Positions 1-15,610 of a DNA stretch of 64,000 nt are shown piece after piece (the stretch's first letter is position 1; every line of letters begins with the position of its first letter). The notes beneath the pieces are model-generated. The model saw only the letters and a program-made list of their open reading frames with translations. It ran no database searches and was not told the origin of the DNA. The position numbers were made by a program, and so were the translations under genes. The stretch lies in NCBI RefSeq assembly GCF_004323735.1, contig NZ_CP036455.1, forward strand, positions 3,653,101-3,717,100, in the 5' to 3' direction. The stretch comes from Streptomonospora litoralis (GTDB taxonomy: Bacteria; Actinomycetota; Actinomycetes; Streptosporangiales; Streptosporangiaceae).

Positions 1-60
1 GTTGCGCCCGTGTTGCGGGAACAGGGTAAGAAGCCGCTGTCGCCCTGCTGTTGCGCCCGA
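1..60 (+). repeat. Short direct repeat upstream of the biosynthetic operon
   Basis: The 10-mer GTTGCGCCCG occurs at 1-10 and again at 51-60, exactly 50 bp apart, with a partial match GTTGCGGG at 12-19. The repeats lie upstream of the first gene of the operon and could be binding sites for a pathway regulator. No regulator gene is seen beside them in the window, and the left edge cuts off further context. I could not find a convincing -35/-10 pair here. Confidence 0.3.
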
Positions 61-149
61 CTTGCGTGCGGTTCAGTAGAAATATTCCGCGTCGGAGCAC
101 CGCCGCCCGCACCGGCGGCGGCATCGGCCCGCTAATGAAGGAGACGCGT

Positions 150-1367
150 GTGACACCGCCATCGGCCTGGGGCGTGCTAGCAGAAAGATTGGCCGCCACG
201 CAGCGGCGCGTTCGGTCACTGGAATCCGAGCCGGACCGGCGCAACAGTTTCCTGCCCTACACAGTCGAACGCGATTCGGCCTATGCCGAATTCGAGGGCT
301 CGCGGCTGCTGATGATGTCCGGTTACAGCTACCTGGGCCTGGCGGGCGACGAACGGGTGGTCGCGGCCGCGAAGTCGGCGGTGGACACCTACGGCACCGG
401 CAACCACGGCGTCCGCGCGCTGGCCGGCACCATCCCGCTGCACGAGGAGCTGGAAGCGGAGATCGCCCGCTTCGCCGGGCGCGAGGCCGCGATCGCGTTC
501 GGCTCCGGCTACGCCGCCAACGTCGGCACGGTGGGCGGCCTGGTCGGGGCCGGCGACACCGTGTTCATCGACAAGTACGACCACGCCAGCATCGTCGACG
601 GCTGCCGGCTGAGCGGGGCCGAGGTGACCCGGTTCCGCCACAACGACGTCGAGCACCTGGGGCGGCGGCTGGCCGCCTCCCGCACCCGCGGCCTGCGGCT
701 GGTCATCGTGGACAGCGTCTACTCCATGGACGGCGACATCGCGCCCCTTCCGCAGCTGCGGCGGGTCTGCGACGAGCACGACGCGCTGCTGATGGTCGAC
801 GAGGCCCACGCCCTGGGGGTCATCGGCGCATCGGGCGGCGGCATCGAGGACCACTTCGGCGGCGAGGTCCGGGTCGACGTGAAGCTGGGGACGCTGTCCA
901 AGGCGATCCCGTCGATGGGCGGCTGGGTGGCGGGCGACCAGGCGCTGATCGGCCACCTGCGGTACGCGGCGCGGCCCTTCCTGTTCTCCGCCGCGCTGGC
1001 TCCGGCACAGGCTGCTGCCGCGCTGGAGTCCCTGCGCATCCTGCGCGCCGAGCCGGAACGGGTCGCCCACACCCAGCACGAGTCCGCGCGGCTGCGCGAT
1101 CTGCTCTCCGCGGCGGGTCTGCGCACCGCGGCGAGTGAGACGGCGGTGATCCCGCTGATCGCGGGCGGCGACGAGACCGCCTACGACTTCGCGACCGCCT
1201 GCCGCCACGAGGGCGTCATCGCCCTGCCGGTGGTCACCCCGGCCGTGCCCAACGACCTGGCCCGGCTGCGGATCGCGGTCACCGCGCGGCACAGCAAGGC
1301 CGACATCGACTTCGCCGCGGAAGCCTTCCTCAAGGCCGCGCGCACCTCGGCCGTACTGCCGTCCTGA
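150..1367 (+). CDS. Alpha-oxoamine synthase (PLP-dependent, BioF/KBL-like)
   Basis: A 405-residue member of the alpha-oxoamine synthase family, which joins an amino acid to an acyl thioester with loss of CO2 (8-amino-7-oxononanoate synthase, 2-amino-3-ketobutyrate ligase; PigH/RedN in prodiginine synthesis contain this domain). Family marks are visible: the DEAHALGVIG segment that holds the PLP-ring aspartate, and the Schiff-base lysine in LGTLSKAIPSMGG at about residue 251. The chosen GTG at 150 has AAGGAG (138-143) six bases upstream; an ATG at 135 and one at 51 are in frame but lack this spacing. It is free-standing, without the carrier domains fused to it in PigH. The substrate is unknown. 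As first gene of the operon it probably supplies an amino ketone to the pathway. Confidence 0.85.
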   Translation: MTPPSAWGVLAERLAATQRRVRSLESEPDRRNSFLPYTVERDSAYAEFEGSRLLMMSGYSYLGLAGDERVVAAAKSAVDTYGTGNHGVRALAGTIPLHEELEAEIARFAGREAAIAFGSGYAANVGTVGGLVGAGDTVFIDKYDHASIVDGCRLSGAEVTRFRHNDVEHLGRRLAASRTRGLRLVIVDSVYSMDGDIAPLPQLRRVCDEHDALLMVDEAHALGVIGASGGGIEDHFGGEVRVDVKLGTLSKAIPSMGGWVAGDQALIGHLRYAARPFLFSAALAPAQAAAALESLRILRAEPERVAHTQHESARLRDLLSAAGLRTAASETAVIPLIAGGDETAYDFATACRHEGVIALPVVTPAVPNDLARLRIAVTARHSKADIDFAAEAFLKAARTSAVLPS

Positions 1368-1396
1368 AGACACCGTTGGAGCGGACGCGAGTTCCG

Positions 1397-2632
1397 ATGC
1401 GCAATTCATCCAGACCACCCGTCGCCATCACCGGCTGGGGCGTCGTGACGCCGGCCGGCTGCAGCCCCGACGACCTGTGGGCCGGCCTGCGGGCCGGAAA
1501 GTCCACCGCCGCCGTCCTCACCTCACCGGAACTGGCCCGCCACCGGATGCACATCGGCTGTGCGGTGCGCGGGCTGGACGGGGCCCGCGAGGTCTCGGCC
1601 AAGGACGCCCGCAGACTCGACCCGTTCACGGTGTACGGCACCACGGCGGCGTTGGCGGCCCACCGCGACGCCGGCTCCCCTGCGCCCGAGCCCGGCCGCG
1701 GCGCGATCGTCGTCGGCAACGCCGTCGGCGGCCGCTCCACCAGCGACAGCCAGAGCCGCAACTACGTGGAGCAGGGCCCGGGGCGGGTCAACCCGCTCAT
1801 GCCGCTGATGACCATGCCCAACGCCGCCGCGGCGCGGATCGCCATGGACCTGGGATGGCAGGGCCCCGCCACGACCATCGCCACCACCTGCTCCAGCGGC
1901 GCGGACGCGGTGGGCCACGCCCTGCTGCTCCTGCAGACGGGCCGGGCCGACGCGGTGCTCGCCGGCGGCTGCGAATGCACGCTGACGCCCGTCACCCTCG
2001 CCGCCTTCGGCAATCTCAACGCCGTCTCCAAGCGCGTCGACCGGCCCGAGCACGCCTGCCGCCCCTTCGACACCGACCGGGACGGGTTCGTGATGGGAGA
2101 GGGCGCCGGATTCGTGCTGCTGGAGCGCAGCGCCGACGCCCGCGCCCGCGGAGCCGCGCCTTACGCGGAGATCGCCGGGTACGGCTCCACCTCCGACGCC
2201 TACCACCTGTCCATGCCCCGCCCCGACGGCAGCGGCGCCGCCGACGCCATGGCCCAGGCCATCTCCGACGCGGGGCTGGCGCCCTCCGACATCGTGCACG
2301 TCAACGCCCACGGCACCGCCACTCCGCACAACGACCGGGCCGAGGCCGCAGCGCTGCACCGGGTGTTCGGCGCCCACCAGCCGCCGGTCACCGCGCCCAA
2401 GGGCGTCCTCGGGCATTTGATCGGCGCGGCCGGCGCCGTCGAGCTCGTAGCGACGGTGCAGGCCATGGCGCGCTGCGAGGTCCCGCCCACGGCCAACCAC
2501 GAGCGGGCCGAACCCGGCCTGGAGATCGACGTCGTGCACGGTGAACCGCGCGCGGTGCACTCGGGCCCGGCACTGACCAACTCCTTCGGATTCGGCGGCC
2601 ACAACGCCGCCCTGGTGGTGACACCCGGATGA
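1397..2632 (+). CDS. Ketosynthase, FabF/KAS II-like
   Basis: A 411-residue stand-alone beta-ketoacyl synthase. The catalytic triad is intact: Cys165 in TTCSSGADA, His305 in NAHGTATPHND and His340 in GHLIGAAGAVE. It should carry out decarboxylative Claisen extension of a carrier-bound starter with malonyl-carrier. In prodiginine pathways a ketosynthase of this kind (PigJ/RedX) extends pyrrolyl-S-carrier before an oxoamine synthase acts, and the same pairing occurs here. A TTG at 1376 is an alternative start (418 residues); neither start has a strong ribosome site. The gene begins 29 bp after the oxoamine synthase and its end overlaps the MaoC gene by ATGA. No acyltransferase or chain-length factor is visible, so malonyl loading would come from elsewhere. 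Confidence 0.85.
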   Translation: MRNSSRPPVAITGWGVVTPAGCSPDDLWAGLRAGKSTAAVLTSPELARHRMHIGCAVRGLDGAREVSAKDARRLDPFTVYGTTAALAAHRDAGSPAPEPGRGAIVVGNAVGGRSTSDSQSRNYVEQGPGRVNPLMPLMTMPNAAAARIAMDLGWQGPATTIATTCSSGADAVGHALLLLQTGRADAVLAGGCECTLTPVTLAAFGNLNAVSKRVDRPEHACRPFDTDRDGFVMGEGAGFVLLERSADARARGAAPYAEIAGYGSTSDAYHLSMPRPDGSGAADAMAQAISDAGLAPSDIVHVNAHGTATPHNDRAEAAALHRVFGAHQPPVTAPKGVLGHLIGAAGAVELVATVQAMARCEVPPTANHERAEPGLEIDVVHGEPRAVHSGPALTNSFGFGGHNAALVVTPG

Positions 2633-3513
2633 CCGCTCCCCGACCCGCGACCGACGACACCGCTCCGCCGCCCGAGCCCGCCCCGGCATCCCACGTCATG
2701 GCCGACGGGAGCCGGATGGCCCTTCACCGCGCCGCCCTGCGCGCCGACCTGGGGCCCGCGTCGACGCCGGAGCCCTCCCCGATCTACCCGTTCGTGCTCG
2801 CCCACCCCGTGGCCGACGCCACCGTGCGCGGCATGGCCGACGACGGCGCCGAATCGCCGAGCGTCGTCCACCTCGGCCAGGAGATCCGCATCCGGCGGCT
2901 CCCCCGCCCCGCGGAGGAGATCGGCGCCGCCCCGGAGGTCCTGGCCGTGCGCGCGCAACCGGGCGGCTGCAACGTCGCCGTACGCATCACCCTGACGGAC
3001 GCGGCGGGCGAACCGGTGGCCGTGCTGCTCAGCACCGTGCTGCTGTCTGGGGCGTCCCCGGCCCCGTTCGGCACGGCGCACCGCATGAGCGCGCCGGCCC
3101 GAAGCGGATCCGGTGAGGCCGTCGGCGTGACCCACCGCCTGAGCGAGGAGTGGATCGCGGACTACGCCGAGGCGAGCGGCGACCGCAACCCCATCCACCT
3201 GGACCCCGCGGCGGCGCGCGCGGCGGGCTTCGACACGGTGATCGCCCACGGCATGGGGGTGCTGGGGCTGGCCTGCGAGGAGGTCGTCGACCGCTTCGCG
3301 GCCGGCTCCCCCGCACGCGTCCGCTCGATCGGCGCGCGCTTCTCCGCACCGGTGGGGGCCGGTGAGCCCCTCACCATGGCCCTGGAGCCCGACGCCGATC
3401 CCGCCGGCGGCCCCGTCGCGTTCTCCTGCAGGACCGGACGCGGTCTGGCCGTCAAGGGCGGCTGGGTGGAGCTTCACCCCGCCCGCGGAGCTGCGGAGCC
3501 GGACGATGGCTGA
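2629..3513 (+). CDS. MaoC-family hydratase/dehydratase (double hotdog)
   Basis: A 294-residue protein with an N-terminal hotdog-like half (about 40-140) and a C-terminal MaoC half (about 160-285). The C-terminal half carries the hydratase-2 motif YAEASGDRNPIHLD with the catalytic Asp185 and His190, followed by GFDTVIAHGMGVLGL. Such proteins hydrate or dehydrate (3R)-hydroxyacyl / enoyl thioesters. Here it probably processes the beta-carbon of an intermediate made by the upstream ketosynthase, although no ketoreductase is encoded in the visible operon. Start and stop overlap both neighbours, which points to translational coupling. Confidence 0.8.
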   Translation: MTAPRPATDDTAPPPEPAPASHVMADGSRMALHRAALRADLGPASTPEPSPIYPFVLAHPVADATVRGMADDGAESPSVVHLGQEIRIRRLPRPAEEIGAAPEVLAVRAQPGGCNVAVRITLTDAAGEPVAVLLSTVLLSGASPAPFGTAHRMSAPARSGSGEAVGVTHRLSEEWIADYAEASGDRNPIHLDPAAARAAGFDTVIAHGMGVLGLACEEVVDRFAAGSPARVRSIGARFSAPVGAGEPLTMALEPDADPAGGPVAFSCRTGRGLAVKGGWVELHPARGAAEPDDG

Positions 3514-5032
3514 GCTCGCCGACCCCCTCGCCGGGATTCTGCACCAGGTGCGGCACCGGCCCCAGGCGCCCGCGCTCCACTGGCGCGGCACCCGGGTGAC
3601 CTACGGCGGCCTCTACGAGCGGGCGCGCCGCGAATGCGACCGGATCGCCCGCCTGGACTCGCATCCGGGGGAACCGGTCGCGGTGCTGGCCGACAAGTCG
3701 CCGGAGGCGGTGGCGCTGATCCTGGCCTGCCTGCTGCTGCGGCGCCCCTTCCTGCTCCCCTCGACGGCGCTGGCCGACACCCAACTGGCCGACCTGGCCG
3801 CCCAGGCGGGCTGCCGGCAGGTGCTTACCCCCGAGGGGGCGCCCGGGCGGCCGCTGCCCCCGGGGCGGGAGCAGCGGCGCACGCCGCCGCCGGGGACGAC
3901 GTTCATGCTCACCACCTCCGGCTCCACCGGACTGCCCAAGGTCGTGCCGCTGGAGGCGGCCGCCGTGCACCGGTTCGCCGCCTGGGCGGCCCCGGCGTTC
4001 GGGATCGGCCCCGGCACGCCGGTGCTCAACTACGCCCCGCTGAACTTCGACCTGTGCCTGCTGGACGTCTGGGCGTCGCTGGCCCGCGGCGCGCAGGTCG
4101 TGCTGGTCGACCCCGAGCGCGGGCTCGACGGCCGGTATCTTCTCGACCTGGTGCTGGGCTACGGCGTGCAGGTCGTGCAGGCGGTGCCGATGGCCCACGG
4201 GCTGCTCGCCGACGCGGCCGCGGCACGGGGCGCCGATGCACCCTCGGTGCGGCACGCGCTGTTCACCGGCGACGTCATGCCCGAACGCACGCTCTCCGCG
4301 CTGCCGGGACTGTTCCCCCGCGCCCGGCTGTACAACGTCTACGGCTGCACCGAGACCAACGACAGCTTCGTCCACGAGGTCCCCCGCGCCGAGGCGCGCG
4401 CGGCGCAGGGGCCGCCGCCCATCGGGACTCCGCTGCCCGGGGTGCGGGCGCTCGTCCTGGACGAGCGGGGGCAACAGATCGACGGGGCCGGGGCGGGCGA
4501 GCTGTACGTGCGCACGCCGTTCCAGTCGCCGGGCTACCTCGACGCCGCCAAGCGCGCCGAGAGGTTCGCCGGCCACCCGCTGGGACAGGACGACGGCCGC
4601 TGGTACCGCACCGGCGATCTGGTGGAGCGCGACGCCGCCGGCTGCCTGCGGCTCACCGGGCGTGCCGACTTCCAGGTCAAGATCCGGGGAACCGCCGTCA
4701 ACACGGCCGAGGTGGAGCGGGTGCTGCTGAAGCACCCCGATGTGCTGGAGGCGGGGGTCGCCGCCGTCGCCGACCCCGAGACCGGCCGCCGCCTCGTCTC
4801 CGCGGTGCACCGCGCCCCCGGGTCCGGCCTCAACAGCCTCACTCTGCGCGGGCACCTGTCCCGCAACCTGCCGCGAGCGGCCGTACCGCCCGTCCTGCGG
4901 ATCAGCGACGAGCCGCTGGCCAAGACGCCGACCGGAAAGGTCGACCGCGGCGTCCTCGATCACCCGGCGGGCGGCTCCGACCGCCGCCGGGAAGCCGGAA
5001 ACGAACCGACTGCGAAGGGAAGCCCGCTATGA
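3506..5032 (+). CDS. Amino-acid adenylation enzyme (stand-alone A domain)
   Basis: A 508-residue AMP-forming enzyme that should activate an amino acid and load it on the carrier protein encoded next. Visible cores: TTSGSTGLPK (136-145, ATP loop), FDLCLLDVW with Asp182, YGCTETND (279-286), RWYRTGDLV, and the C-terminal AKTPTGK with catalytic Lys478. Asp182 aligns with GrsA Asp235, the residue that binds an alpha-amino group, and the next pocket positions read L and L. That start, D-L-L, is also how I remember the proline-activating PltF signature, but my hand alignment of later pocket positions does not follow proline enzymes, so the substrate is open. The ATG at 3506 overlaps the MaoC stop by 8 bp, and the stop overlaps the carrier start (ATGA). 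Confidence 0.85.
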   Translation: MAELADPLAGILHQVRHRPQAPALHWRGTRVTYGGLYERARRECDRIARLDSHPGEPVAVLADKSPEAVALILACLLLRRPFLLPSTALADTQLADLAAQAGCRQVLTPEGAPGRPLPPGREQRRTPPPGTTFMLTTSGSTGLPKVVPLEAAAVHRFAAWAAPAFGIGPGTPVLNYAPLNFDLCLLDVWASLARGAQVVLVDPERGLDGRYLLDLVLGYGVQVVQAVPMAHGLLADAAAARGADAPSVRHALFTGDVMPERTLSALPGLFPRARLYNVYGCTETNDSFVHEVPRAEARAAQGPPPIGTPLPGVRALVLDERGQQIDGAGAGELYVRTPFQSPGYLDAAKRAERFAGHPLGQDDGRWYRTGDLVERDAAGCLRLTGRADFQVKIRGTAVNTAEVERVLLKHPDVLEAGVAAVADPETGRRLVSAVHRAPGSGLNSLTLRGHLSRNLPRAAVPPVLRISDEPLAKTPTGKVDRGVLDHPAGGSDRRREAGNEPTAKGSPL

Positions 5033-5292
5033 GCCACACGGACGCCATCAGGCAGTTCGTCATCACCGAGTTCCTGCCCGACCTCGACCCCGGCGACCTC
5101 GCCGACGACCACGACCTCATCACCGACAGCGTCATCGACAGCGTCGGCACGCTCAAGCTGATCGCCTGGGTGGAGAACACCTTCGACCTCAGGGTCGGCG
5201 ACACCGAACTGGACCCGGACAACTTCCGCACCGTCACCGCGATCGACTCCTTCATCGCGCGGATGCGCGAGGCCGAAGCGGCGGAGAACTGA
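5029..5292 (+). CDS. Acyl/peptidyl carrier protein
   Basis: An 87-residue acidic free-standing carrier protein. The phosphopantetheine attachment serine is most likely Ser38 in VIDSVGTLKLI; the hydrophobic residues after the serine fit helix II of carrier proteins. A good ribosome site (AAGGGA, about 5014-5019) precedes the ATG, which overlaps the stop of the adenylation gene. The pairing with a stand-alone A domain suggests it holds the activated amino acid while the dehydrogenase-like enzyme (7573-8718) acts on it. It is the only carrier in the visible operon, so the ketosynthase may need it too, or a second carrier outside the window. Confidence 0.88.
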   Translation: MSHTDAIRQFVITEFLPDLDPGDLADDHDLITDSVIDSVGTLKLIAWVENTFDLRVGDTELDPDNFRTVTAIDSFIARMREAEAAEN

Positions 5293-5294
5293 CC

Positions 5295-6353
5295 GTGCAC
5301 GAGGTGATCACCGCCCTGCTGAACCGGCGCCCGGTGACACGGGCCGAGGACTGGCGGTCGCTGTGGGACCGGCTCGGCTCCGGTGGGCTGGACCGGGCCG
5401 AGGCGGCCGCGCTGCTGGGCTCCCTGGCCACCCACCCGCCCGAAGCGCCCACCCTGCGCGCCCTGCTCGACTCGCTCTCCCGGCGCCCGGCGGCATCGGC
5501 CGACCGGTGCTGGCCCGCGACCGTCAACACCGTCGGCACCGGCGGCGGGCCCTCGACGTTCAACGTCTCCACCGCGGCCGCGTTCGTGGCGGCGGCGATG
5601 GGCGTGCGGGTCGTCAAGACGGGCTCGCGCGCCTACAGCAGCCGACTCGGCTCGGTCGATCTGCTGGAGCGGCTGGGGGTGCGCCTGACCGGCTCGCTGG
5701 AGGAGACGGCCGACGCCGTGGACCGCGACGGCATCGCCTTCGCCGGCCCGTTCGTGTATCCGCCGGAGCTGACCGCACTGGCGCGGGCCATGGCGCCGGT
5801 GGCGCTGCGGCCCTTCGGACGCTTCCTCAACGCCGTCGGCCCCTTCCTCGCCGATTTGCCGGTCGCCGCCCAGGTCACGGGCGTCTCGGCGGCCATGCCG
5901 CTGGCCGAGCTCCGCCAGGTGGCACAAGGCGTCGACGACCGCCTGATCTGGCTGTGCACCAACGACCTCGGCGCCGACGAACTGCTCGGTTTCTGCGACA
6001 ACACCGTCTACTCCAACGCCGCAGGAGGCGGCACCCCCGTGCTGCGGCTGCGCCGCGGCGAACTGCTGCCCGAGCGCGGCGGTATCGAGGACCTGCGGCC
6101 GTTCGAGCCGGACGACGCCGTACGCCGCTTCCGCGAGGTGCTGGCCGGTCCCCCGGGTGCGGCCACCGACACCGTCTGCCTCAACGCCGCCGCCGCCGCG
6201 GTGGCGGCGGGCGCGGCCGACGACTGGCCGCAGGCGCTGGACGCCGCCCGGGAGGCGGTCGCCGAGGGGGCCGCCCTCGCCCTCCTCGACCGGCTGCGCG
6301 AGCGGTCCCAGACGCCGGGAACGCTGCAGGCGAGCGGGGGCCGCCATGGCTGA
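5295..6353 (+). CDS. TrpD-like phosphoribosyltransferase with altered acceptor site
   Basis: A 352-residue homologue of anthranilate phosphoribosyltransferase, which transfers ribose-5-phosphate from PRPP to the amine of anthranilate. The PRPP/Mg elements are recognisable: NTVGTGGG followed by TFNVSTAAAF, and Asp228-Glu229, matching the metal-binding D-E pair near 223-224 in studied TrpD. The acceptor site differs: the usual K-H-G-N-R reads K-T-G-S-R (Thr109), the conserved His near 154 is Tyr155, and the arginine of the R-T-I-F-N segment is replaced in my alignment. These are the residues that hold anthranilate in known enzymes, so the acceptor may be a different amine. The GTG start lies 2 bp after the carrier stop; the end overlaps the TrpA-like gene by 8 bp. 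Confidence 0.82.
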   Translation: MHEVITALLNRRPVTRAEDWRSLWDRLGSGGLDRAEAAALLGSLATHPPEAPTLRALLDSLSRRPAASADRCWPATVNTVGTGGGPSTFNVSTAAAFVAAAMGVRVVKTGSRAYSSRLGSVDLLERLGVRLTGSLEETADAVDRDGIAFAGPFVYPPELTALARAMAPVALRPFGRFLNAVGPFLADLPVAAQVTGVSAAMPLAELRQVAQGVDDRLIWLCTNDLGADELLGFCDNTVYSNAAGGGTPVLRLRRGELLPERGGIEDLRPFEPDDAVRRFREVLAGPPGAATDTVCLNAAAAAVAAGAADDWPQALDAAREAVAEGAALALLDRLRERSQTPGTLQASGGRHG

Positions 6354-7179
6354 CTTCTTCTCCCACCGACCGGCCGGCCGTGTGGGACTGGCCGTGTTCC
6401 TCAACGCGGGCGACCCGCCCCTCGACGTCCTGGCCGACGTCGTGCACATGCTGGACGAGGCGGGCGTCGAGTGCCTCGAACTCGCGGTGCCGTTCCCGGA
6501 CTCGGTGACCGACGGGCCGGTGGTGCAGCGCTCGGCGCGGCGCGCGCTCGACCGCGGTACCGACCTCGACGCCGTACTCGCCTTCGTCTCGCGGATACGG
6601 CCCCGCCTGGCCCGGATGCGCATCGCGCTGCTGGCCGACTGGAGCCACTCGCTGAGTCCGCGCGGTCTCGGCGAAGCGCTCGGCGACGTCGCCGAGTCGG
6701 GGGCCGACGCGCTGCTCACCCACGCCCTGCCGCCGCGGATGCGCGACGAGTACTACCGGGCGGCGCGCGAGAGCGGTGTCGCCGTAGTCACCACCTGCTA
6801 CCCGCAGTCGCGCCCGGAGGTCGCGGCCGAGGCCGCCGCCAACGCCACCGGATACCTCTACCTCGTGGCCCGCTACGGGCGCAGCGGCACCGGCCCGGTC
6901 GGCGGGCACGCGGCGCTGGCGGGCACCGTCCGGCGCCTGCGGGAGAGTACAGCCGCCCCGATCGCGCTGGGATTCGGAGTCCGCACACGCGCGGACGTGG
7001 CGGCCGTGGCCGCCTCGGGGGCCGACGCCGCCGTCATCGGATCGGCGGGGGTGACCCGCGTCGAGGAGGCCCAGGAGCAGGGCGCGGACCCGGCGGCCCG
7101 GCTGCGGGAGTTCGTCCTGGAATGCCGTCCGCCCTTGCCCGACCAGACCGCCCAGGAATCCGCCAACAGCACGGCATGA
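6346..7179 (+). CDS. TrpA-like (tryptophan synthase alpha homologue)
   Basis: A 277-residue TIM-barrel protein of the TrpA family, which cleaves indole-3-glycerol phosphate to indole and glyceraldehyde-3-phosphate. Both catalytic acids are kept: Glu45 (LELAVPF) and Asp56 (VTDGP), with the same 11-residue spacing as Glu49/Asp60 of E. coli. The phosphate-site end ([16 protein letters not shown]) is also present. The loop between the two acids reads PDSV where TrpA normally has SDPL, a region that in TrpAB contacts the beta subunit. No TrpB gene is present, so the enzyme may release a free heteroaromatic product, as plant BX1-type lyases do, or cleave an analogue made by its TrpD/F/C-like neighbours. 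Confidence 0.82.
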
Positions 7180-7189
7180 GGAGCAGCGC

Positions 7190-7564
7190 ATGATCATCCG
7201 GGACATCGAGAACGTGAAGACCGTCGACTGGGGCAACGGGCTGAGCCGGCGCTTCCTGCTGCAGGAGGACGGTGTCGGCTACAGCATCACCGACACCATC
7301 GTCAGCGCCGGGACCCGCTCCCGCCTGGAGTACCGCAACCACCTGGAGTCCTGCTACTGCATCGAGGGGTCGGGGGCCGTCATCGAGCTGGACGGCACCG
7401 TCCACCCGCTCCGCCCCGGGCGGATGTACTCCCTCGACAAGCACGACGCGCATTTCCTGGTGGCCGACCCCGACACCGACCTGCGGCTGGTGTGCGTCTT
7501 CACCCCGGCTCTGCAGGGCGACGAGGCCCACCGCCTCGACGAGTCCCTCGCCTCGGCGTACTGA
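7190..7564 (+). CDS. Ectoine synthase (EctC) homologue, orphan
   Basis: A 124-residue cupin closely resembling EctC along its whole length. EctC is an iron-dependent cyclo-dehydratase that closes the tetrahydropyrimidine ring of ectoine. The iron ligands known from EctC are present: Glu in YCIEGSG, Tyr in RMYSLDKHD and His in HDAHFL. The N-terminal SRRFLL...DGVGYSITDT and YRNHLE segments also match the family. EctA, EctB and EctD are absent, and the gene sits inside a metabolite operon with its own GAGGAG ribosome site (7178-7183). I infer a ring-closing dehydration on a pathway intermediate rather than ectoine synthesis, though import of N-acetyl-diaminobutyrate as substrate cannot be excluded. 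Confidence 0.85.
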   Translation: MIIRDIENVKTVDWGNGLSRRFLLQEDGVGYSITDTIVSAGTRSRLEYRNHLESCYCIEGSGAVIELDGTVHPLRPGRMYSLDKHDAHFLVADPDTDLRLVCVFTPALQGDEAHRLDESLASAY

Positions 7565-7572
7565 GGACCGGC

Positions 7573-8718
7573 GTGTTCGAGGCGACCACCGAGGCCGCGG
7601 AGCTGCGCAAGGGCCTGGCCGACTGGGCGAAGGACCTCAGCGAGGGCCACATCGAGGCCGACGAGGCAGGGGAGTTCCCCTGGCACAAGTGGCGGATGAT
7701 CCAGCGGAGCGGTCTGCTCGGGCTGCCGTTCGCGCAGCCGTGGGGCGGCCTGGAGCGCTCGCTGCCCGAAGTCCTCCACGTGCTGGAGGGGCTGGGCGAG
7801 TACTGCCGCGACTCCGGGCTGAGCTTCTGCGCCACGACGACGATGGCCAGCACCGGCGTCCCCGTGGAGCGGTTCGGCACGGCGGAGCAGCAAAAACGGT
7901 ATCTGCCCGGAATCTGCTCGGGCGAGCTGATCGGGGCGCACGCCATCACCGAATCCGAGAGCGGCTCCGACGCGCTGCGGATGGCCACGCGGGCCGAACC
8001 CGACGGCGACGGCTTCGTGCTGCACGGCAGCAAGCTCTTCGTCACCAACGCACCGATCGCCGACGTGTTCGTCGTCTACGCGCGCACCCACCCCGACGGC
8101 GGTCCGCTGGGTACGACGGCGTTCCTGGTGGACCGCGACACACCGGGCCTGACGTGCGGTGCCCCGGCCAGGAAGATGGGGCTGCGCACCGCTCCGATGT
8201 CGGAGCTGTCGCTGGACGGCGTCCGCGTCGCCCGGGACCGGGTGGTGGGCCGGGTCGGCGGCGGATTCCTGGTGATGGACCACGTGATGAAGCGGGAGAT
8301 CCTCTTCACCGCCGCCGTGCACGCGGGCGAGATGGAACACCGGCTCCAGCGGTGCCTGGACTACGCGAAGAGCCGGCACGCCTTCGGTCGGCCGATCGGT
8401 TCGTACCAGTCGGTCACCAACCGCATCGCCGAGATGCGGATCCGCCTCGATACGGCCCGCAAGTGGATCTTCGACACCGGGGAGCGCCTCGCGGCGGGCC
8501 ACGACGTCACAGTCGATCTCGCCGCGACCAAGCTCGTGACCAGCGAGGCGAACGTGGCCGGCAGTCTGGCCGCCGTCGCCATCTTCGGCGGCCACGGCTA
8601 CATGGTCGAGCAGGGGATGGAGAAGGAGGTCCGCAACGCCGTGGGCGGGACCGTCTATTCGGGAACGAGCGACATCCACTACAACCGCATCGCCGCGGCG
8701 CTGGGGCTGGATCCGTGA
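7573..8718 (+). CDS. Acyl-CoA dehydrogenase-like flavoenzyme, probable aminoacyl-carrier oxidase
   Basis: A 381-residue protein of the acyl-CoA dehydrogenase fold. FAD-binding signatures are visible (AHAITESESGSDA, FVTNAP, FGGHGYMVEQG). The catalytic base normally found near the C-terminus (Glu376 in medium-chain dehydrogenase) is replaced by Ser363 in VYSGTSDIHY, while Glu242 in MKREILF lies where isovaleryl-CoA dehydrogenase and prolyl-carrier oxidases place their base. This, and the nearby A domain and carrier, make a prolyl- or aminoacyl-S-carrier desaturase plausible. The GTG start is 8 bp after the EctC stop; the end overlaps the TrpF-like gene by GTGA. A plain acyl-CoA substrate remains possible. 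Confidence 0.8.
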   Translation: MFEATTEAAELRKGLADWAKDLSEGHIEADEAGEFPWHKWRMIQRSGLLGLPFAQPWGGLERSLPEVLHVLEGLGEYCRDSGLSFCATTTMASTGVPVERFGTAEQQKRYLPGICSGELIGAHAITESESGSDALRMATRAEPDGDGFVLHGSKLFVTNAPIADVFVVYARTHPDGGPLGTTAFLVDRDTPGLTCGAPARKMGLRTAPMSELSLDGVRVARDRVVGRVGGGFLVMDHVMKREILFTAAVHAGEMEHRLQRCLDYAKSRHAFGRPIGSYQSVTNRIAEMRIRLDTARKWIFDTGERLAAGHDVTVDLAATKLVTSEANVAGSLAAVAIFGGHGYMVEQGMEKEVRNAVGGTVYSGTSDIHYNRIAAALGLDP

Positions 8719-9449
8719 GTGCGCGACACCCCGGCCCGCCGGCGGCGGGCGGGCCGGGGACCCTCCTCAAGGCCTGCGGGGCAGTGTCGGCGCGGGAGGT
8801 CGCGGCCGCGGCCGCCGGCGGCGCCGACTGCGTGGGGCTCTGGCACGGGATTCCCGGCGGCCGCGCGGAACTCGCCGAGCACACGGCGAGGGGGTTGGCG
8901 GCCGAGGCCCGCTCGCACGGCGTGGAACCGGTCCTGGTCACCTTCGGCGACGACCCGGCGGCGCTGGCGGCCGCCGCCGACCGCACCGGGGTGCGGTGGG
9001 TGCAGCTGCACGCCTACCAGCTCCCGCGGGTGGTGGGCGGTCTGCGCGAGAGGGCACCCGGCGCCGTCCCGGTCAAGGTGCTGCACGTGGACGGCGGCGG
9101 GCGGTGCCTGGAGCTGCGGCTGGCCGACGCCTATGCCCGGGCCGGGACCGAGATGTTCCTCCTCGACACCGCGACCGCCGACGGACGGGTCGGCAGTACG
9201 GGCCAGGCGCTGGACGCGGTCGGCGTGCTGCGCATCGCCGACCGGCTGCCCAGGCCCTTCCTGCTGGCCGGAGGCGTCACCGCGGCCCGCCGGGCGGACT
9301 ACGACCGCGTCGTCGAGCACCCCATGTTCGCCGGGGTGGACGTCGACACCGGCGCCCGGGGCGGGGACGGGGAACTGTCCGAAACCGCGGTAACCGAACT
9401 CTCCCGCGCCTGGCGGACGGGGCGCGGGCGACGAAAGGAGCGCAGCTGA
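8715..9449 (+). CDS. TrpF-like phosphoribosyl-anthranilate isomerase homologue
   Basis: A 244-residue TIM-barrel homologue of TrpF, which performs the Amadori rearrangement of N-phosphoribosyl-anthranilate. The catalytic pair is retained: Cys21 in LKACGAVSA (general base) and Asp151 in MFLLDTATADG (general acid). The phosphate-binding end is present as LLAGGVTAA and GVDVDTGA. The N-terminus is about 14 residues longer than usual. The start overlaps the dehydrogenase stop by GTGA and the stop overlaps the TrpC-like start. The active chemistry should be unchanged; the substrate would be whatever amine the altered TrpD homologue ribosylates. Confidence 0.82.
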   Translation: MSARHPGPPAAGGPGTLLKACGAVSAREVAAAAAGGADCVGLWHGIPGGRAELAEHTARGLAAEARSHGVEPVLVTFGDDPAALAAAADRTGVRWVQLHAYQLPRVVGGLRERAPGAVPVKVLHVDGGGRCLELRLADAYARAGTEMFLLDTATADGRVGSTGQALDAVGVLRIADRLPRPFLLAGGVTAARRADYDRVVEHPMFAGVDVDTGARGGDGELSETAVTELSRAWRTGRGRRKERS

Positions 9450-10207
9450 TGGCGCACGACTTCATCGACGCCCTGCTCGGTGCCGAGCGGCCGGTGATCG
9501 CCGAGATCAAGCGCAGGGACTCCCACGGCCGGGACCTCTTCGCGGGGCGCGGACCGGCCGACATCGTCTCCGCCTACGAACAGGCCGGGGCACCGTGCCT
9601 CTCGGTGGTCACCGGATCCTGGTTCGGCGGCAGTGAGGCACTGCTGGCCGAGACCGCAGAGCTGACACGGCTGCCCCTGCTGCAGAAGGACTTCGTCACC
9701 AGGCGCGACCAGATCACCCGGGCGGCCGACCTCGGCGCCGCCGCGGTGCTGATCACGGCCGAACTGCTGCCCCGCCCGGCACTTCAGTCGCTGGTCGCCT
9801 CCTGCCTGGACACGGGGCTGACCCCGTTCGTCGAGGTGACCGAGCAGCCCCAAGCGGCCGCTGTTCCGCACGCCGAGCAGTGCGTGATCGCGGTCAACAA
9901 CAAGAACATCCGCACCCGGGAGCGCGACGCGGGCGACACCGGCCGCAGCCTCACGCTGCTGCCCGCGCTGCTGGAGGCGGGCACGCGCTGCCCGGTCAGC
10001 GCCAGCGCGGTACCCGACCCGCACGTCGGCGCCCGGCTGCTGGACGCCGGGTTCGCCGGACTGCTGGTGGGCACGGCGCTGCTGCGCGACGGCGATCCGC
10101 GGGGCTGGCTCGACACCGTGGCGCGGCGGCGGCAGGTGCCGCCGGCCCAGCCGCCCGCAGGCACCGAAGTCGCGGATGCGCCGGCCCCGCTCGGCGGGCG
10201 ACCGTGA
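9449..10207 (+). CDS. TrpC-like indole-3-glycerol-phosphate synthase homologue
   Basis: A 252-residue TIM-barrel homologue of TrpC, which closes the pyrrole ring of indole-glycerol phosphate with loss of the anthranilate carboxylate. Catalytic residues known from Sulfolobus IGPS are mostly in place: Glu19 and Lys21 (AEIKRRD), Lys80 (LLQKDF), Glu129 (FVEVTEQ) and Asn150 (AVNNKN). Two differences stand out: the usual N-x-R becomes N-N-K, and the I-S-E-S-G-I strand reads VSASAV, removing a conserved acid. The protein lacks the long N-terminal helix of typical TrpC. AAAGGAG (9434-9440) precedes the ATG at good spacing. It probably forms a pyrrole ring on an unusual ribulosyl-amine. Confidence 0.82.
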   Translation: MAHDFIDALLGAERPVIAEIKRRDSHGRDLFAGRGPADIVSAYEQAGAPCLSVVTGSWFGGSEALLAETAELTRLPLLQKDFVTRRDQITRAADLGAAAVLITAELLPRPALQSLVASCLDTGLTPFVEVTEQPQAAAVPHAEQCVIAVNNKNIRTRERDAGDTGRSLTLLPALLEAGTRCPVSASAVPDPHVGARLLDAGFAGLLVGTALLRDGDPRGWLDTVARRRQVPPAQPPAGTEVADAPAPLGGRP

Positions 10208-11085
10208 GCGCGCCGCCGCGCGCGGCGCCCGCCGGCGCCGACATCCGGCGCATTCGCCTGGACGCCGGTGGAATCACCCTTTCGGGGCTGCTGGCGCGTC
10301 CCACGGGCCCGCCGCGGCCGGGTGGCGCGAACCGTCCGGTCGTACTGGCCGTCCACGGCCGGTCCATGCGGGCCGACTACTTCCACGCCCGCACCCACCC
10401 CGACCTCTCCCTGCTGGATGTAGCCGTCGCCCGCGGACACACCGTTGTGGCCCTGGACCGGCCGGGCTACGGTGCATCGGCCGAGCGGCTGCCCGAGGGC
10501 CAGACGGTCGACGAGCAGTCGGCGACCGTGCACGCGGCCCTGCGCTCGTTCTCCGCCGACCATGCGGCCCGGGCCGGCTTCGTCGTGCTCGCCCACTCCC
10601 ACGGCGGCAAGCTGGCCCTGCGGCTCGCCGCCGACGACTCCGCGGGCCGCATCCGCGGGCTGGACATATCGGGGTGCGGAGTCGAGTACTCCGCGGCGGC
10701 GCGCGGTCTGCCGTCCTCCCTGGGCGCCGGCGCGTCGCGGCTGAACTGGGGGCCGCTGCGGCTCTACCCGCCGGGCACCTTCCAGCAGGCGCGCAGCCTG
10801 CTGGCGCCCACTCCGCCCAGGGAGGACGGCGAGTGGCTGCGCTGGCCGCACCAGTACCGCGACCTCGCCCCGCGGGTGCGGGTCCCGGTGCGCTTCACCT
10901 TCGCCGACCACGAGGCGTGGTGGCGGCTGGGGGACTCCGATCTGGCCGAGCTGGCCGGGGCGCTCACCGCGGCGCCGCGGGTGGGCGTCCACCGCCACCC
11001 CGACGCCGGGCACAACATCAGCCTGGGCTGGAGTGCGCGCGCCTACCATCTGCGCGCCCTCGAATTCCTCGAAGCGTGCCGCTGA
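10204..11085 (+). CDS. Alpha/beta hydrolase
   Basis: A 293-residue alpha/beta-hydrolase. The oxyanion-hole segment is VLAVHGRS and the nucleophile elbow is LAHSHGGKLA with the catalytic serine between histidine and histidine-glycine. A late PDAGHN segment supplies the likely catalytic histidine, and the aspartate probably lies in the FADHEAWW region. It is the last gene of the operon, its GTG overlapping the TrpC-like stop by GTGA. Likely roles are release of the product from the carrier (type II thioesterase-like) or hydrolysis or cyclisation of an ester or amide; the sequence does not decide between these. Confidence 0.78.
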   Translation: MSAPPRAAPAGADIRRIRLDAGGITLSGLLARPTGPPRPGGANRPVVLAVHGRSMRADYFHARTHPDLSLLDVAVARGHTVVALDRPGYGASAERLPEGQTVDEQSATVHAALRSFSADHAARAGFVVLAHSHGGKLALRLAADDSAGRIRGLDISGCGVEYSAAARGLPSSLGAGASRLNWGPLRLYPPGTFQQARSLLAPTPPREDGEWLRWPHQYRDLAPRVRVPVRFTFADHEAWWRLGDSDLAELAGALTAAPRVGVHRHPDAGHNISLGWSARAYHLRALEFLEACR

Positions 11086-11104: not shown

Positions 11105-11863
11105 CTAAAGTCCCAGTACCCGGCGCAGCTCCCGGGCCTGGCGGCGGGAGACCTCGACCCGGCTCTTGCGGGGGTCGTCCATCAGCAGCATCAGCGTGCC
11201 CCGGAAGTCGGGGGCCAGTTCACGCACGTAGTCGAGGTTCACCAGGTAGGAGCGGTGCGCGCGGAAGAAGTGCGCACCGCGCAGGCGGCGCTCCAGCTCG
11301 TTCAGGGAGAAGTTGACCAGCACCCGCTCGTCGGCGAGCTGCAGGTAGGAGTATCCGCGCGCCGCTCCGGCGTAGATGATCGAGGACTCGTTGAGCAGCA
11401 CGGTCCGGTCGCCCTTGTGCACCGGGATGCGGTGCGGCGAATCCGCGCCGTCGGACCGCCGCGGCGGCTCCGGCTGCGGTTCGCCCTCCTCGGGGCGGGC
11501 GGCCAGGGCGCGGTCCAGCGCCCGCTCCAGCCGCTCGGCGTCGAAGGGTTTGACCAGGTAGTCGGCGGCGTCCAGATCGAACGCCTCGACCGCGTAGTCG
11601 GGAAACGCCGTGGTGAAGATGATCCTCGGCGGGTGCGCCGCCTCGCGCAGCTTGCGGGCGACGTCCAGCCCGGTGCCGCCGGGCATCCGGATGTCCATCA
11701 GCACGAGGTCGTAGTCCAGGGAGTCCAGCAGCAGCAGCGCTTCCTCGGCGTTGGACGCCTCGCCGACCACCTGAACGTGGTCGAACCGGGACATCAGGTA
11801 ACGGAGATCCGCCCGCGCCGGAGCCTCGTCGTCGACGATGAGGCATCGCGCGCGCATAGTCAT
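11105..11863 (-). CDS. LytTR-family response regulator
   Basis: A 252-residue response regulator. The receiver domain (about 1-125) shows the acidic pair in LIVDDEAP, the phospho-acceptor aspartate in LVLMDIRMP and the lysine in YLVKPFD. A variable linker rich in Pro and Glu follows, then a LytTR DNA-binding domain (about 150-252; IYAGAARGYSYL, FFRAHRSYLVNL). LytTR domains bind direct repeats spaced about two helical turns apart. The start overlaps the stop of the sensor kinase gene (ATGA). It probably controls the two symporter operons that diverge upstream; see the repeats at 15725-15772. Confidence 0.9.
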   Translation of the reverse strand: MTMRARCLIVDDEAPARADLRYLMSRFDHVQVVGEASNAEEALLLLDSLDYDLVLMDIRMPGGTGLDVARKLREAAHPPRIIFTTAFPDYAVEAFDLDAADYLVKPFDAERLERALDRALAARPEEGEPQPEPPRRSDGADSPHRIPVHKGDRTVLLNESSIIYAGAARGYSYLQLADERVLVNFSLNELERRLRGAHFFRAHRSYLVNLDYVRELAPDFRGTLMLLMDDPRKSRVEVSRRQARELRRVLGL

Positions 11864-13149
11864 CCAAAGGGGATTCGCAGATCGATGACGGTCCCGCCGC
11901 CCTCGGTGGACTGGATGTCCAGACGATAGCGCTCCCCGTAGAGCGATGCCAAGCGTCCAGCGATATTGCTCAGCCCTTGGCCGTCGCCTTCGCCGCGCTC
12001 ACCGTCGGAGATGCGCTTCAGCAGGTCGGCGGGGATTCCGACTCCGTCGTCGGCGACCCGGATGGAGGTGGTGCGGGTCAGCGGATCCACCCGCGCCTTC
12101 AACGTCACCGTGCCGCCCTCGACCTTGCTCGCCAACCCGTGCTTGATCGCGTTCTCCACCAGCGGCTGGATGATGAGGACCGGGACGTGGGCGGTGAGCA
12201 CCTGGGGATCGATGTCGTAGCGCACCTGCACGCGTTCGCCGTAGCGGGCCTGTTCCAGCGACACGTAGGTGCGCACGAAGAAGTACTCCTGGCCGAACTC
12301 GGCGAAGTGCCCCTCCTGGCGCACCACGTAGCGGAAGAAGTCGGACAGGCGCACCAGCAGCTGCCGTGTCTCCTCGGTGTCGGTGTGCACCTTGGATGCG
12401 ATGGTGTTGAGGGTGTTGAACAGGAAGTGCGGGTTGATCTGGGCGCGCAGCGCGTCGAGCTTGGCGTCGACCGCGAGCCGCTGGCGGCGGTTGAGCTCGG
12501 CCAGCTCCAGGTGCAGCGAGAGGATACCCGCCAAGCCCTCCACCACCCCCTGCGGCGACAGCGCACCGTCGCCGCGGTACACCTGCAGGGTGCCGACGGT
12601 GCGGTTGCCGTCGGTCAGCGGCGCCACGACCGCGGTGCGCAGCGGGCACTGCCCGTGCGGGCACCCGAGTTCGCCGCGGCGGCGCACGAGGACGGTCTTG
12701 CCCCGGCTCAGTGCGCGTTCCGTCGGTGCGGGGGCGGTGTCGCCGAAGCGGTGGTGGTCGCGCCCCGGCCCCACGAAGGCGAGGACGCGCTCGCGATCGG
12801 TGATCGCGACGGCGGCGCCGCTGAGCAGCGGCTGGAGGAGCTGGGCGGTGCGCCGCGCGCCCTCCCCGGTCAGCCCGGAGCGCAGCGGCATGGACCGGCC
12901 GACCGCCGCGATGGTGGTGCCGTGCCGGCCCTGCTGCAGGCGGGTGGTGATCGGCTGTGCGGGGCGCTTGCTGCGGGGGCCGCGCAGCGCCGAGGGGTAG
13001 CCGAAGATCAGCGCCGTGGTCAGGCCGGTGCCGATCAGCAGGGTTGTTCCGGTACCCAGCGGGGGCGCCGTGATCAGCTGGGTGACCAGGTAGACCGCTC
13101 CCCAGGCGAGGAGGATGACGCCGGCGAGGGGGAGGCTGCCGTTGCTCAT
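11860..13149 (-). CDS. LytS/YehU-type sensor histidine kinase
   Basis: A 429-residue sensor kinase. Two N-terminal membrane helices (about 5-27 and 33-52) are followed by a GAF-like region (about 90-200) containing a Cys-rich GCPHGQCPL stretch that might bind metal or sense redox. The phospho-acceptor histidine is in AQINPHFLFNTLNTI, typical of the His_kinase family of LytS, and the ATP-binding domain ends with PLVENAIKHG, VADDGVGIP and GQGLSNIAGRL. It pairs with the overlapping LytTR regulator. The ligand may be the substrate of the symporters encoded in the same operon, as in other transporter-coupled LytST systems. Confidence 0.88.
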   Translation of the reverse strand: MSNGSLPLAGVILLAWGAVYLVTQLITAPPLGTGTTLLIGTGLTTALIFGYPSALRGPRSKRPAQPITTRLQQGRHGTTIAAVGRSMPLRSGLTGEGARRTAQLLQPLLSGAAVAITDRERVLAFVGPGRDHHRFGDTAPAPTERALSRGKTVLVRRRGELGCPHGQCPLRTAVVAPLTDGNRTVGTLQVYRGDGALSPQGVVEGLAGILSLHLELAELNRRQRLAVDAKLDALRAQINPHFLFNTLNTIASKVHTDTEETRQLLVRLSDFFRYVVRQEGHFAEFGQEYFFVRTYVSLEQARYGERVQVRYDIDPQVLTAHVPVLIIQPLVENAIKHGLASKVEGGTVTLKARVDPLTRTTSIRVADDGVGIPADLLKRISDGERGEGDGQGLSNIAGRLASLYGERYRLDIQSTEGGGTVIDLRIPFG

Positions 13150-14831: not shown

Positions 14832-15184
14832 CACGGCGGTGGCGCCCCGTCCTGGTGGTGGGCCTCGCGGGCGGGGCCGCCGAGCATCCGCTCCTCGACC
14901 GCGTTGGACAGGGTCGCGGCGGCCAGGCAGATCACGAAGAAGAAGGCGTAGAGCCCGAGTCCGGTCATGGCGAACATGGGGCTCATCCCGCCGAAGAGGC
15001 GACCTTGCGACCACCAGTCCAAGGCGGCCGTCAGCAGCGGCACGGCCACGATGACGCCGGTGAACACGGCGACGTGGCCGATGGCGACGCGCCGCAGGGT
15101 GCGGAAGGCCGCGTCGACCTCGGCGGGAGTGTCGTGCTCGTCGGCGGAGCCCAAAGAGATCTCCGGCTCCTCGGGGCGGGGCAC
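14831..15184 (-). CDS. Small two-helix membrane protein, symporter accessory
   Basis: A 117-residue protein with two predicted membrane helices (about 36-57 and 69-91) between hydrophilic ends. Small proteins of this kind (DUF485 or similar) commonly precede acetate-type SSS symporters and are thought to be accessory subunits; I do not see a clear DUF485 motif, so the family name is left open. The GTG start at 15184 is 3 bp from the upstream gene, and the stop overlaps the symporter ATG. Confidence 0.7.
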   Translation of the reverse strand: MPRPEEPEISLGSADEHDTPAEVDAAFRTLRRVAIGHVAVFTGVIVAVPLLTAALDWWSQGRLFGGMSPMFAMTGLGLYAFFFVICLAAATLSNAVEERMLGGPAREAHHQDGAPPP

Positions 15185-15187
15185 GGC

Positions 15188-15610
15188 TCAGGCCGGGGAC
15201 GCGGCGGACATGCGGCGGGCCGCCCGGACGAGCAGGACCGTGCCGGCGCCGACGATGACCAGGCCGACGCCGGGCAGCAGCTTGCCCCAGCTGTCGGTGG
15301 CCATGCTCAAGTACACGAGCGTGCCGAGCTGCCACAGCACGAGGCCGCCGGCTGCGGCGGCCGGGATGATCGCGTGGGCCAGGGCGACGCGCCGGTAGGG
15401 CAGCAGGGCGCCGGCCAGCGCGAGACCGCCGGCGCACAGCACCCACAGGCCCGGCCCGGCCATGCCGTTCAGGTTGCCCAGCGGCGTGGAGACCCAGGGG
15501 GTGAACGCCCCGATGATCAGCAGCAGACCGCCGGCGAGCAGGCCGACGCTGCCGGTGTGGAAGATGCGCCGCGCTGCGGTGGGGGCGGCGGAGCCGGTGG
15601 AAGGCGACAT
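15188..15610 (-). CDS. Four-helix membrane protein, function unknown
   Basis: A 140-residue protein with four hydrophobic segments (about 20-42, 50-68, 78-100 and 112-130) and an N-terminal Ser/Thr/Ala-rich tail. No named family is recognised. It is the first gene of the minus-strand operon that continues with the small membrane protein, symporter, sensor kinase and LytTR regulator, so its expression should follow theirs. Confidence 0.7.
   Translation of the reverse strand: MSPSTGSAAPTAARRIFHTGSVGLLAGGLLLIIGAFTPWVSTPLGNLNGMAGPGLWVLCAGGLALAGALLPYRRVALAHAIIPAAAAGGLVLWQLGTLVYLSMATDSWGKLLPGVGLVIVGAGTVLLVRAARRMSAASPA

Follow-up and report, generated by a model that had tools for sequence, protein, structure and literature searches.

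The window, a stretch of 64,000 nucleotides from Streptomonospora litoralis (contig NZ_CP036455.1, positions 3,653,101 to 3,717,100), begins with an operon of twelve genes that spans positions 150-11085 and, as judged from homology, very probably holds a pyrrolopyrrole cassette of the kosinostatin type. Open reading frames and profile matches place all twelve genes on the + strand, closely spaced or with overlaps of a few bases, in the families and the order that the original prediction gave them. The first three form an optional module: an alpha-oxoamine synthase of the BioF/Kbl/SPT fold (150..1367, 405 residues; TIGR00858 387 bits, below the cut-off of 426; PF00155), a FabF-type ketosynthase (KS; 1397..2632; NF005589 434 bits, over the cut-off) and a MaoC-type dehydratase (2629..3513; PF01575 76.6 bits). 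The core follows, with a stand-alone adenylation (A) enzyme (3506..5032; profile and PDB matches), a carrier protein of 87 residues (5029..5292; PF00550), a TrpD-like phosphoribosyltransferase (5295..6353; TIGR01245 147 bits, below the cut-off of 199; PF00591 130.5 bits), a TrpA-like retro-aldolase (6346..7179; TIGR00262 150.7 bits, over the cut-off), an EctC-like cupin cyclase (7190..7564; NF009806 139.7 bits, over the cut-off), an acyl-CoA-dehydrogenase-like protein (ACAD; 7573..8718; the top NCBIfam model is the prolyl-carrier dehydrogenase RedW, below its cut-off), a TrpF-like Amadori isomerase (8715..9449; PF00697 26.0 bits, cut-off 22.7) and a TrpC-like ring-closing enzyme without the N-terminal lid (9449..10207; PF00218 109 bits from model position 36). 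An alpha/beta hydrolase, also optional, is last (10204..11085; PF12697 48 bits). The start of the TrpD-like gene was set at 5295 from homologues, with 5289 or 5304 as alternatives. Each of the twelve proteins passes a curated Pfam cut-off, the carrier barely (20.9 bits against 20.8). The pyridoxal phosphate lysine of the oxoamine synthase was found in 40 of 40 sequences, the Cys-His-His triad of the KS in 48 of 48 and the phosphopantetheine serine of the carrier in 76 of 76. The family assignments also bear out that the operon has neither TrpE nor TrpB.

The TrpA-like protein was searched in 341 genomes of the same family (E up to 1e-26) and matched in six, the genome of the window included. 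Three of these (the window's own, G017 and G155) carry the oxoamine synthase-KS-MaoC part. In G136, G340 and G353 the series A-carrier-TrpD-TrpA-EctC-ACAD-TrpF-TrpC was found alone, with no homologue of the oxoamine synthase, KS or MaoC in the 33-35 kb around it. When a TrpC alignment was run against a collection of genomes from 84,980 species, 84 stretches were confirmed and 80 loci, the upper limit of the scan, were kept, seven strains occurring twice among them. All eight core genes lie on one strand in 65 of the 80 loci, and the gene order of the window is found in 64 of these 65 complete cassettes, the exception being L105, where TrpF-TrpC has moved to the front. Among the hosts are Streptomyces, Kitasatospora, Nocardiopsis, Lentzea, Kibdelosporangium, Micromonospora and Actinoplanes, and even Roseomonas and Azospirillum. 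A search for the same gene set in other genomes had been proposed as a check, and since the core recurs in order in other genera the gene set of the window is not due to chance.

Six of the 15 incomplete loci (L044, L051, L057, L062, L090 and L096) run into contig ends, and the stretches of L101 and L115 end before the ACAD, which their genomes do hold. L046 is without A and TrpF. The remaining six (L086, L100, L109, L117, L118 and L119) have between one and seven of the core genes in the stretch fetched, and their whole genomes were searched for ACAD and EctC only. No ACAD match at E 1e-60 was found in the L118 genome, the locus itself holding an ACAD fragment, and the best EctC matches in the whole genomes of L118 and L109 reached 42 and 40 percent. 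In the L100 genome the eight core genes are scattered over one contig. A replacement of the ACAD by a FAD amine-oxidase-like gene in Roseomonas and Azospirillum was considered and rejected, as the ACAD lies just beyond the fetched flank.

The oxoamine synthase, KS and MaoC are separable from the core and not, as originally proposed, one unit with the Trp-like set. All three accompany the core in 38 of the 65 complete cassettes, and 22 of these 38 loci also have the hydrolase. In four more, which are Kibdelosporangium-like, KS and MaoC adjoin the core and the oxoamine synthase lies, by coordinates, 19-22 kb upstream of A, so that 42 of the 65 accompany KS/oxoamine-synthase chain-building genes. 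The idea that the Kibdelosporangium-type loci have no oxoamine synthase was rejected, given this homologue of 63-65 percent in four of four; the distance was read directly in L158 and assumes the same contig for the other three. In 20 of the 65 none of the three genes was found in the flank, which covered 0.15 to 4.4 kb upstream of A and about 3 to 10 kb downstream of TrpC; one of the 20, L102, starts at its contig end. Partial or weak matches were obtained in the last three (L083, L103 and L120). A midpoint-rooted tree of 69 concatenated cores groups 23 of the 25 loci that were labelled as lacking KS/MaoC into one clade, the others being L102 and L083, in which MaoC is present and KS was not detected. 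The window stands beside Nocardiopsis salina in the KS/MaoC branch.

The genes of the operon are not the primary trp operon, which is ruled out by the other trp genes of the genome and by the lack of TrpE and TrpB. The genome search for primary trp genes covered TrpA, the TrpD fold and the TrpE fold. It gave a second TrpA at C1:2426737 with a TrpC homologue beside it, three PF00591 (TrpD fold) matches in all, one of which, at C1:2251465, is stronger than that of the window copy, and five chorismate-binding (TrpE fold) matches. A second EctC, scoring higher than the window copy, is at C1:569648. The window copies are thus extra, and the possibility, raised with the original prediction, that they are the only trp genes of the genome does not hold.

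The ring pyrrolo[2,3-b]pyrrole was first derived from the enzyme set, and a literature search for that ring then led to kosinostatin. An almost complete kosinostatin biosynthetic gene cluster (BGC) is reported in Nocardiopsis alkaliphila YIM 80379 (PMC7918784). This strain is locus L092 (G136 above), which has a complete eight-gene core with protein identities to the window of 42-67 percent, gene by gene. Kosinostatin is described as a type II polyketide synthase (PKS)/nonribosomal peptide synthetase (NRPS) hybrid with a branched octose (PMC5321127). In table 5 of PMC7918784 the kstB genes are given for nicotinic acid loading and pyrrole formation and kstC for pyrrolopyrrole formation dependent on phosphoribosyl pyrophosphate (PRPP). 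Loss of ksnC3, a putative TrpF (phosphoribosylanthranilate isomerase), is stated to abolish kosinostatin in Streptomyces albidoflavus (PMC13099267); the gene was likened to the TrpF of the window by description and not by sequence. Together with the place of L092 in a reported kosinostatin BGC this requirement makes annulation by Trp-like enzymes known in kind. The discrete A enzyme and carrier beside TrpD, TrpF, TrpC and TrpA homologues are as expected of such a cassette, and the abstract of Ma et al. 2013 reportedly describes a bicyclic amidine built by a process like tryptophan biosynthesis. The kosinostatin clusters (kst of Micromonospora sp. TP-A0468 and ksn of S. albidoflavus) share with the window the A, carrier, EctC, ACAD and TrpD/A/F/C-like set, as judged through L092 and not through the kst record JN038178 or the ksn genes. 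The earlier statement that no described cluster has this set therefore does not stand.

L092 also has sugar-nucleotide genes (by eye) and a transglutaminase-like gene (family F4). Unlike kosinostatin, the window has the KS, MaoC and oxoamine synthase, with KASIII, a short-chain dehydrogenase/reductase (SDR), a flavin monooxygenase (FMO), a FAD oxidase and a phosphopantetheinyl transferase (PPTase) to the left. No type II PKS chain-length factor and no branched octose or sugar genes were found among the proteins examined, which were those of the operon, of the 13 kb to its left and of the right side to about 24000, the rest of the genome lying outside this search. As other chain-building enzymes stand in place of a type II PKS and of sugar genes, a compound other than a quinocycline is the probable product. 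The cluster is real and well conserved, its core is of a known kind, the kosinostatin pyrrolopyrrole, and what sets it apart is the oxoamine synthase/KS partners. No description of the core combined with these partners was found in the open literature, in the parts of the match lists that were opened; cluster databases lay outside the search.

The catalytic residues of the Trp-like enzymes are kept and the positions near the carboxylate are changed (residue numbers follow SsIGPS for TrpC, PlEctC for EctC and PheA for A). The TrpA equivalents of Glu49 and Asp60, needed for the retro-aldol step, were found in 75 of 75 sequences, which supports the earlier claim that Trp-like enzymes are re-used for annulating a pyrrole onto an amine, and TrpF Cys7 and Asp126 in 80 of 80. 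The KHGN motif of TrpD reads K-T/S-G-S, with Ser at the last position in 76 of 76 and Thr (62) or Ser (14) at the second. Glu51, Lys53, Lys110 and Glu159 of TrpC are kept in 84 of 84, and these are common to the window protein and to the indole glycerol phosphate synthase (IGPS) of P. aeruginosa, 6Y88, its best PDB match. Unlike IGPS, all 84 have Arg182 changed to Lys and Glu210 changed to Ala, which fits a substrate without a free carboxylate. By our own mapping the equivalent of Arg182 is Arg196 of P. aeruginosa IGPS, a residue in contact with the carboxylate of the substrate (PMC7681013). According to the same source IGPS can close the ring without decarboxylation as a promiscuous reaction, roughly a thousand times more slowly than normal. 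The TrpF stop codon lies 9-35 codons before the Glu51 equivalent of TrpC in 73 of 76 loci (the distance in the window is 18; the exceptions are L048 with 89 codons, L063 with 47 and the miscalled L111). As the Pfam match moreover begins at position 36, there is no room for the lid helix, and a TrpC without a lid would admit a carrier-bound substrate. The window enzyme is accordingly proposed, on these residues and this length, as a possible non-decarboxylating form.

That the Trp-like genes turn anthranilate of the primary pathway into free indole, the remaining genes being a separate pathway, is hardly credible. A TrpA without TrpB is found in plant indole release, and the operon has this feature. 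The altered KHGN motif of TrpD, the Ala at position 210 of all 84 TrpC, the fixed order with A, carrier, EctC and ACAD and the homology to the kosinostatin cassette all speak against it.

The EctC-like protein had been called an orphan, and it is no odd passenger: its identity is 54 to 83 percent in most loci, which places it among the best conserved members of the core, and Thr40, Tyr52, Glu57 and Tyr84 are kept in 75 of 75 sequences and His92 in 74, with one gap. It shares with ectoine synthase the cupin fold, the iron ligands Glu57, Tyr84 and His92 and the amide and amine contacts. It differs from it in a shifted Trp, in the absence of ectA and ectB beside it in the operon and in Asn38, replaced by Thr in 72 of 75 sequences, by Ala in L077 and L116 and by Cys in L083. 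In P. lautus EctC, Asn38 binds the carboxylate of the substrate (PMC6344544). Its loss, with Thr40, the contact of the alpha-amine, and the ligands of the amide and of the iron kept, fits a substrate without a free carboxylate. A cassette acting on 2,4-diaminobutyrate or its N-acetyl form to give an ectoine-like ring would agree with the EctC family and with Asp330 in the A pocket. It is highly improbable, as EctA and EctB were found neither among the operon families nor among the annotated families of recurrent neighbours (12 of 16), and an ectoine ring offers TrpD no exocyclic amine. A link of the EctC to anthelvencin biosynthesis was also considered and was not borne out, anthelvencin being unmentioned among the literature matches listed.

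The ACAD is closest to RedW (324.8 bits) and PigA (317 bits) among the NCBIfam models and has Glu242 in 75 of 75 sequences, which we guess to be the catalytic base. The prodiginine bipyrrole enzymes (RedM/O/W/N/X) share with the window A, carrier and ACAD, the KS and the oxoamine synthase. On this likeness a proline-derived pyrrolyl-carrier would be formed as in prodiginines, KS and oxoamine synthase would build a bipyrrole and the Trp-like enzymes would annulate the pyrrole. This origin, which was part of the original prediction, is very unlikely. The RedW score is about half the cut-off of 650, the oxoamine synthase is stand-alone and the EctC and Trp-like genes are extra to the prodiginine set. 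The pathway would give no amine for TrpD and no role for EctC, and the KS, MaoC and oxoamine synthase genes do not adjoin A in the 20 complete cassettes mentioned above, with three more partial or weak. The proline/pyrrole code of A domains is DLLYLALV; the window A enzyme has D, L and L in common with it and differs at 278, 301, 322 and 330, with a polar pocket (Gln278, Thr301, Asp330 and Ser331).

The A pocket was located from sequence motifs and from an alignment with solved A domains of a PDB search, which itself gave no specificity, at positions which we take to be those of PheA. Among 74 sequences Asp235, Gln278, Asp330 and Ser331 are found in all, Lys517 in 73, Leu236 in 72, Thr301 in 71 and Leu239 in 70. 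Asp235 and Lys517 are kept as for alpha-amino acids, and this points to an alpha-amino acid as the likely substrate. MxcE, an A domain that accepts nicotinate, has the code PLPAQGVVNK (PMC8400222), and three of the A codes observed here, looked up in the literature, gave no match. A side reaction of EctC forms the cyclic amidine 5-amino-3,4-dihydro-2H-pyrrole-2-carboxylate (ADPC) by condensation of glutamine (PMC6344544). By family, none of the eight core genes encodes an amidotransferase, an aminotransferase or a ring-opening oxygenase, and glutamine would supply both ring nitrogens, which favours it as the start. The invariant Asp235, the EctC without the carboxylate-binding Asn and the atom count thus make L-glutamine on the carrier the probable precursor, in place of the published nicotinic acid.

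The explanation that is preferred on the whole, with good but limited confidence, is that the cluster makes a carrier-bound 1,6-dihydropyrrolo[2,3-b]pyrrole, a bicyclic amidine, from glutamine and then extends it. The A enzyme would load L-glutamine onto the carrier, and the EctC-like cupin would condense the alpha-amine with the side-chain amide, with loss of water, to a 5-amino-pyrroline (a cyclic amidine). The ACAD would take four electrons to give the 5-aminopyrrole-2-carboxyl-carrier. TrpD would then place phosphoribose from PRPP on the exocyclic amine, TrpF would carry out the Amadori shift and TrpC would close the second pyrrole on ring carbon 4, with H+ lost instead of CO2; the electron-rich aminopyrrole carbon, we infer, would need less help for such a closure. 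TrpA would cleave off glyceraldehyde-3-phosphate, so that TrpD, TrpF, TrpC and TrpA together add two ribose carbons net. The acyl unit would pass to the KS/KASIII, a reductase and MaoC for extension, and the oxoamine synthase would join an amino acid to give a product of amino-ketone type. The extension and the joining of the amino acid in the oxoamine synthase branch are the least certain steps. That the pyrrolopyrrole of the quinocyclines and of the larger KS/oxoamine-synthase family derives from one carrier-bound glutamine, with a non-decarboxylating TrpC, is considered somewhat probable.

Several points weigh against the glutamine pathway. The textbook glutamine code DAWQFGLIDK differs from the A code observed, and we know of no metabolite for the oxoamine synthase/KS branch. 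TrpD has a basic residue (Lys in 42 and Arg in 34 of 76) near the arginine that binds the anthranilate carboxylate, and the L109 cassette belongs to the genome with the EctC match of only 40 percent. The 84 TrpC sequences form 69 clusters at 90 percent identity and are thus not independent. The TrpC loci were found with patterns, one of which includes AVNNK, and 78 of the 80 contain it, so the conservation of the Asn and Lys is partly by construction; the six genomes found with TrpA and not with this pattern also have NNK. In M. tuberculosis IGPS the change Glu219Ala, equivalent to position 210, leaves no detectable activity (PMC10591298), and the natural Ala would therefore mean a re-tuned site and not simply a lost carboxylate contact. 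The ADPC side reaction is worded as a condensation of two glutamine molecules in PMC4795551. Finally, nicotinic acid is stated as the origin of the kosinostatin pyrrolopyrrole, citing Ma et al. 2013, in PMC5321127, PMC7918784 (table 5) and PMC8400222. The same cassette would in that case load nicotinate with the A enzyme and carrier, use EctC and ACAD in a ring contraction and form the second ring from PRPP with the Trp-like enzymes. This precursor is considered doubtful, since Asp235 is present in 74 of 74 A domains, nicotinate has one nitrogen and the bicycle two, a ring-opening or aminating enzyme is absent among the eight conserved genes and the deformylase proposed for the route, kstB7, is argued in PMC7918784 to be probably not involved.

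The original prediction noted that the left edge of the window may cut off genes. The operon itself is uncut, its first gene starting at 150, and the genes that lie beyond the edge are probable further members of the cluster. About 13 kb at C1:3639795-3652811 (loci L161 and L023) encode an SDR, a KASIII, an FMO-like protein, a FAD oxidase, an SRPBCC protein, a hydrolase, a PPTase, an AraC regulator, two anthrone-oxygenase-like proteins, an NmrA-like protein and a SARP-like regulator. The KASIII carries the Cys, His and GN motif (by eye), and the SDR was named through a homologue of 66 percent. Most of these genes have homologues near the core in Kibdelosporangium banguiense (46-70 percent) and in Nocardiopsis salina (46-81 percent, the 81 over part of the FMO). 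Flank and operon together, the presumed whole cluster, cover C1:3639795-3664185. With the KS, MaoC and oxoamine synthase, this flank suggests either an extension of the pyrrolopyrrole acyl unit or a separate chain, condensed with an amino acid.

The cassette can be described as a portable eight-gene route to a rare fused heterocycle. The KS/oxoamine-synthase class makes up 42 of the 65 complete cassettes, and no product for it turned up in the literature searched. If the glutamine route is true, the accepted precursor of a published antibiotic pathway, nicotinic acid, is corrected. The pathway would then be a complete recruitment of the tryptophan enzymes to carrier-bound chemistry, and a set of orphan EctC proteins would gain a natural function. 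It would also include a natural non-decarboxylating IGPS, a reaction that the laboratory work in PMC7681013 knew as promiscuity only, at the rate given above.

Variations in gene content are found among the relatives of the cassette. A TrpB2-like gene lies directly before the TrpF/TrpC-like genes in eight of the 80 loci (L099, L109, L110, L111, L112, L114, L117 and L119), a label that comes from one of the eight scanned against NCBIfam. This gene points to a tryptophan analogue that carries the unusual bicycle as the product of some of the relatives. A transglutaminase-like gene follows the ACAD in L089, L092, L097, L099, L103, L110, L112, L114 and L120 (one of the nine Pfam-scanned) and possibly encodes an acyl transferase from the carrier. 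Neither the TrpB-like nor the transglutaminase-like loci are monophyletic in the tree. In a Streptomyces and Kitasatospora branch (L081, L082, L084, L085 and L104) an NRPS condensation-carrier gene lies upstream of the core, on the opposite strand in the locus listed. The core is also present in Roseomonas, Azospirillum and an Acetobacteraceae metagenome-assembled genome (L101, L115 and L105), and in the Roseomonas locus L101 phytoene-desaturase/protoporphyrinogen-oxidase-like and weakly AfsA-like genes lie between core genes. The core of L072, from a genome of 12.4 Mb labelled Rhodococcus rhodnii, nests within Kibdelosporangium, and the record is probably mislabelled. In the window the operon is followed on the - strand, at 11105-15446, by genes for a LytTR response regulator, a histidine kinase and a sodium:solute symporter.

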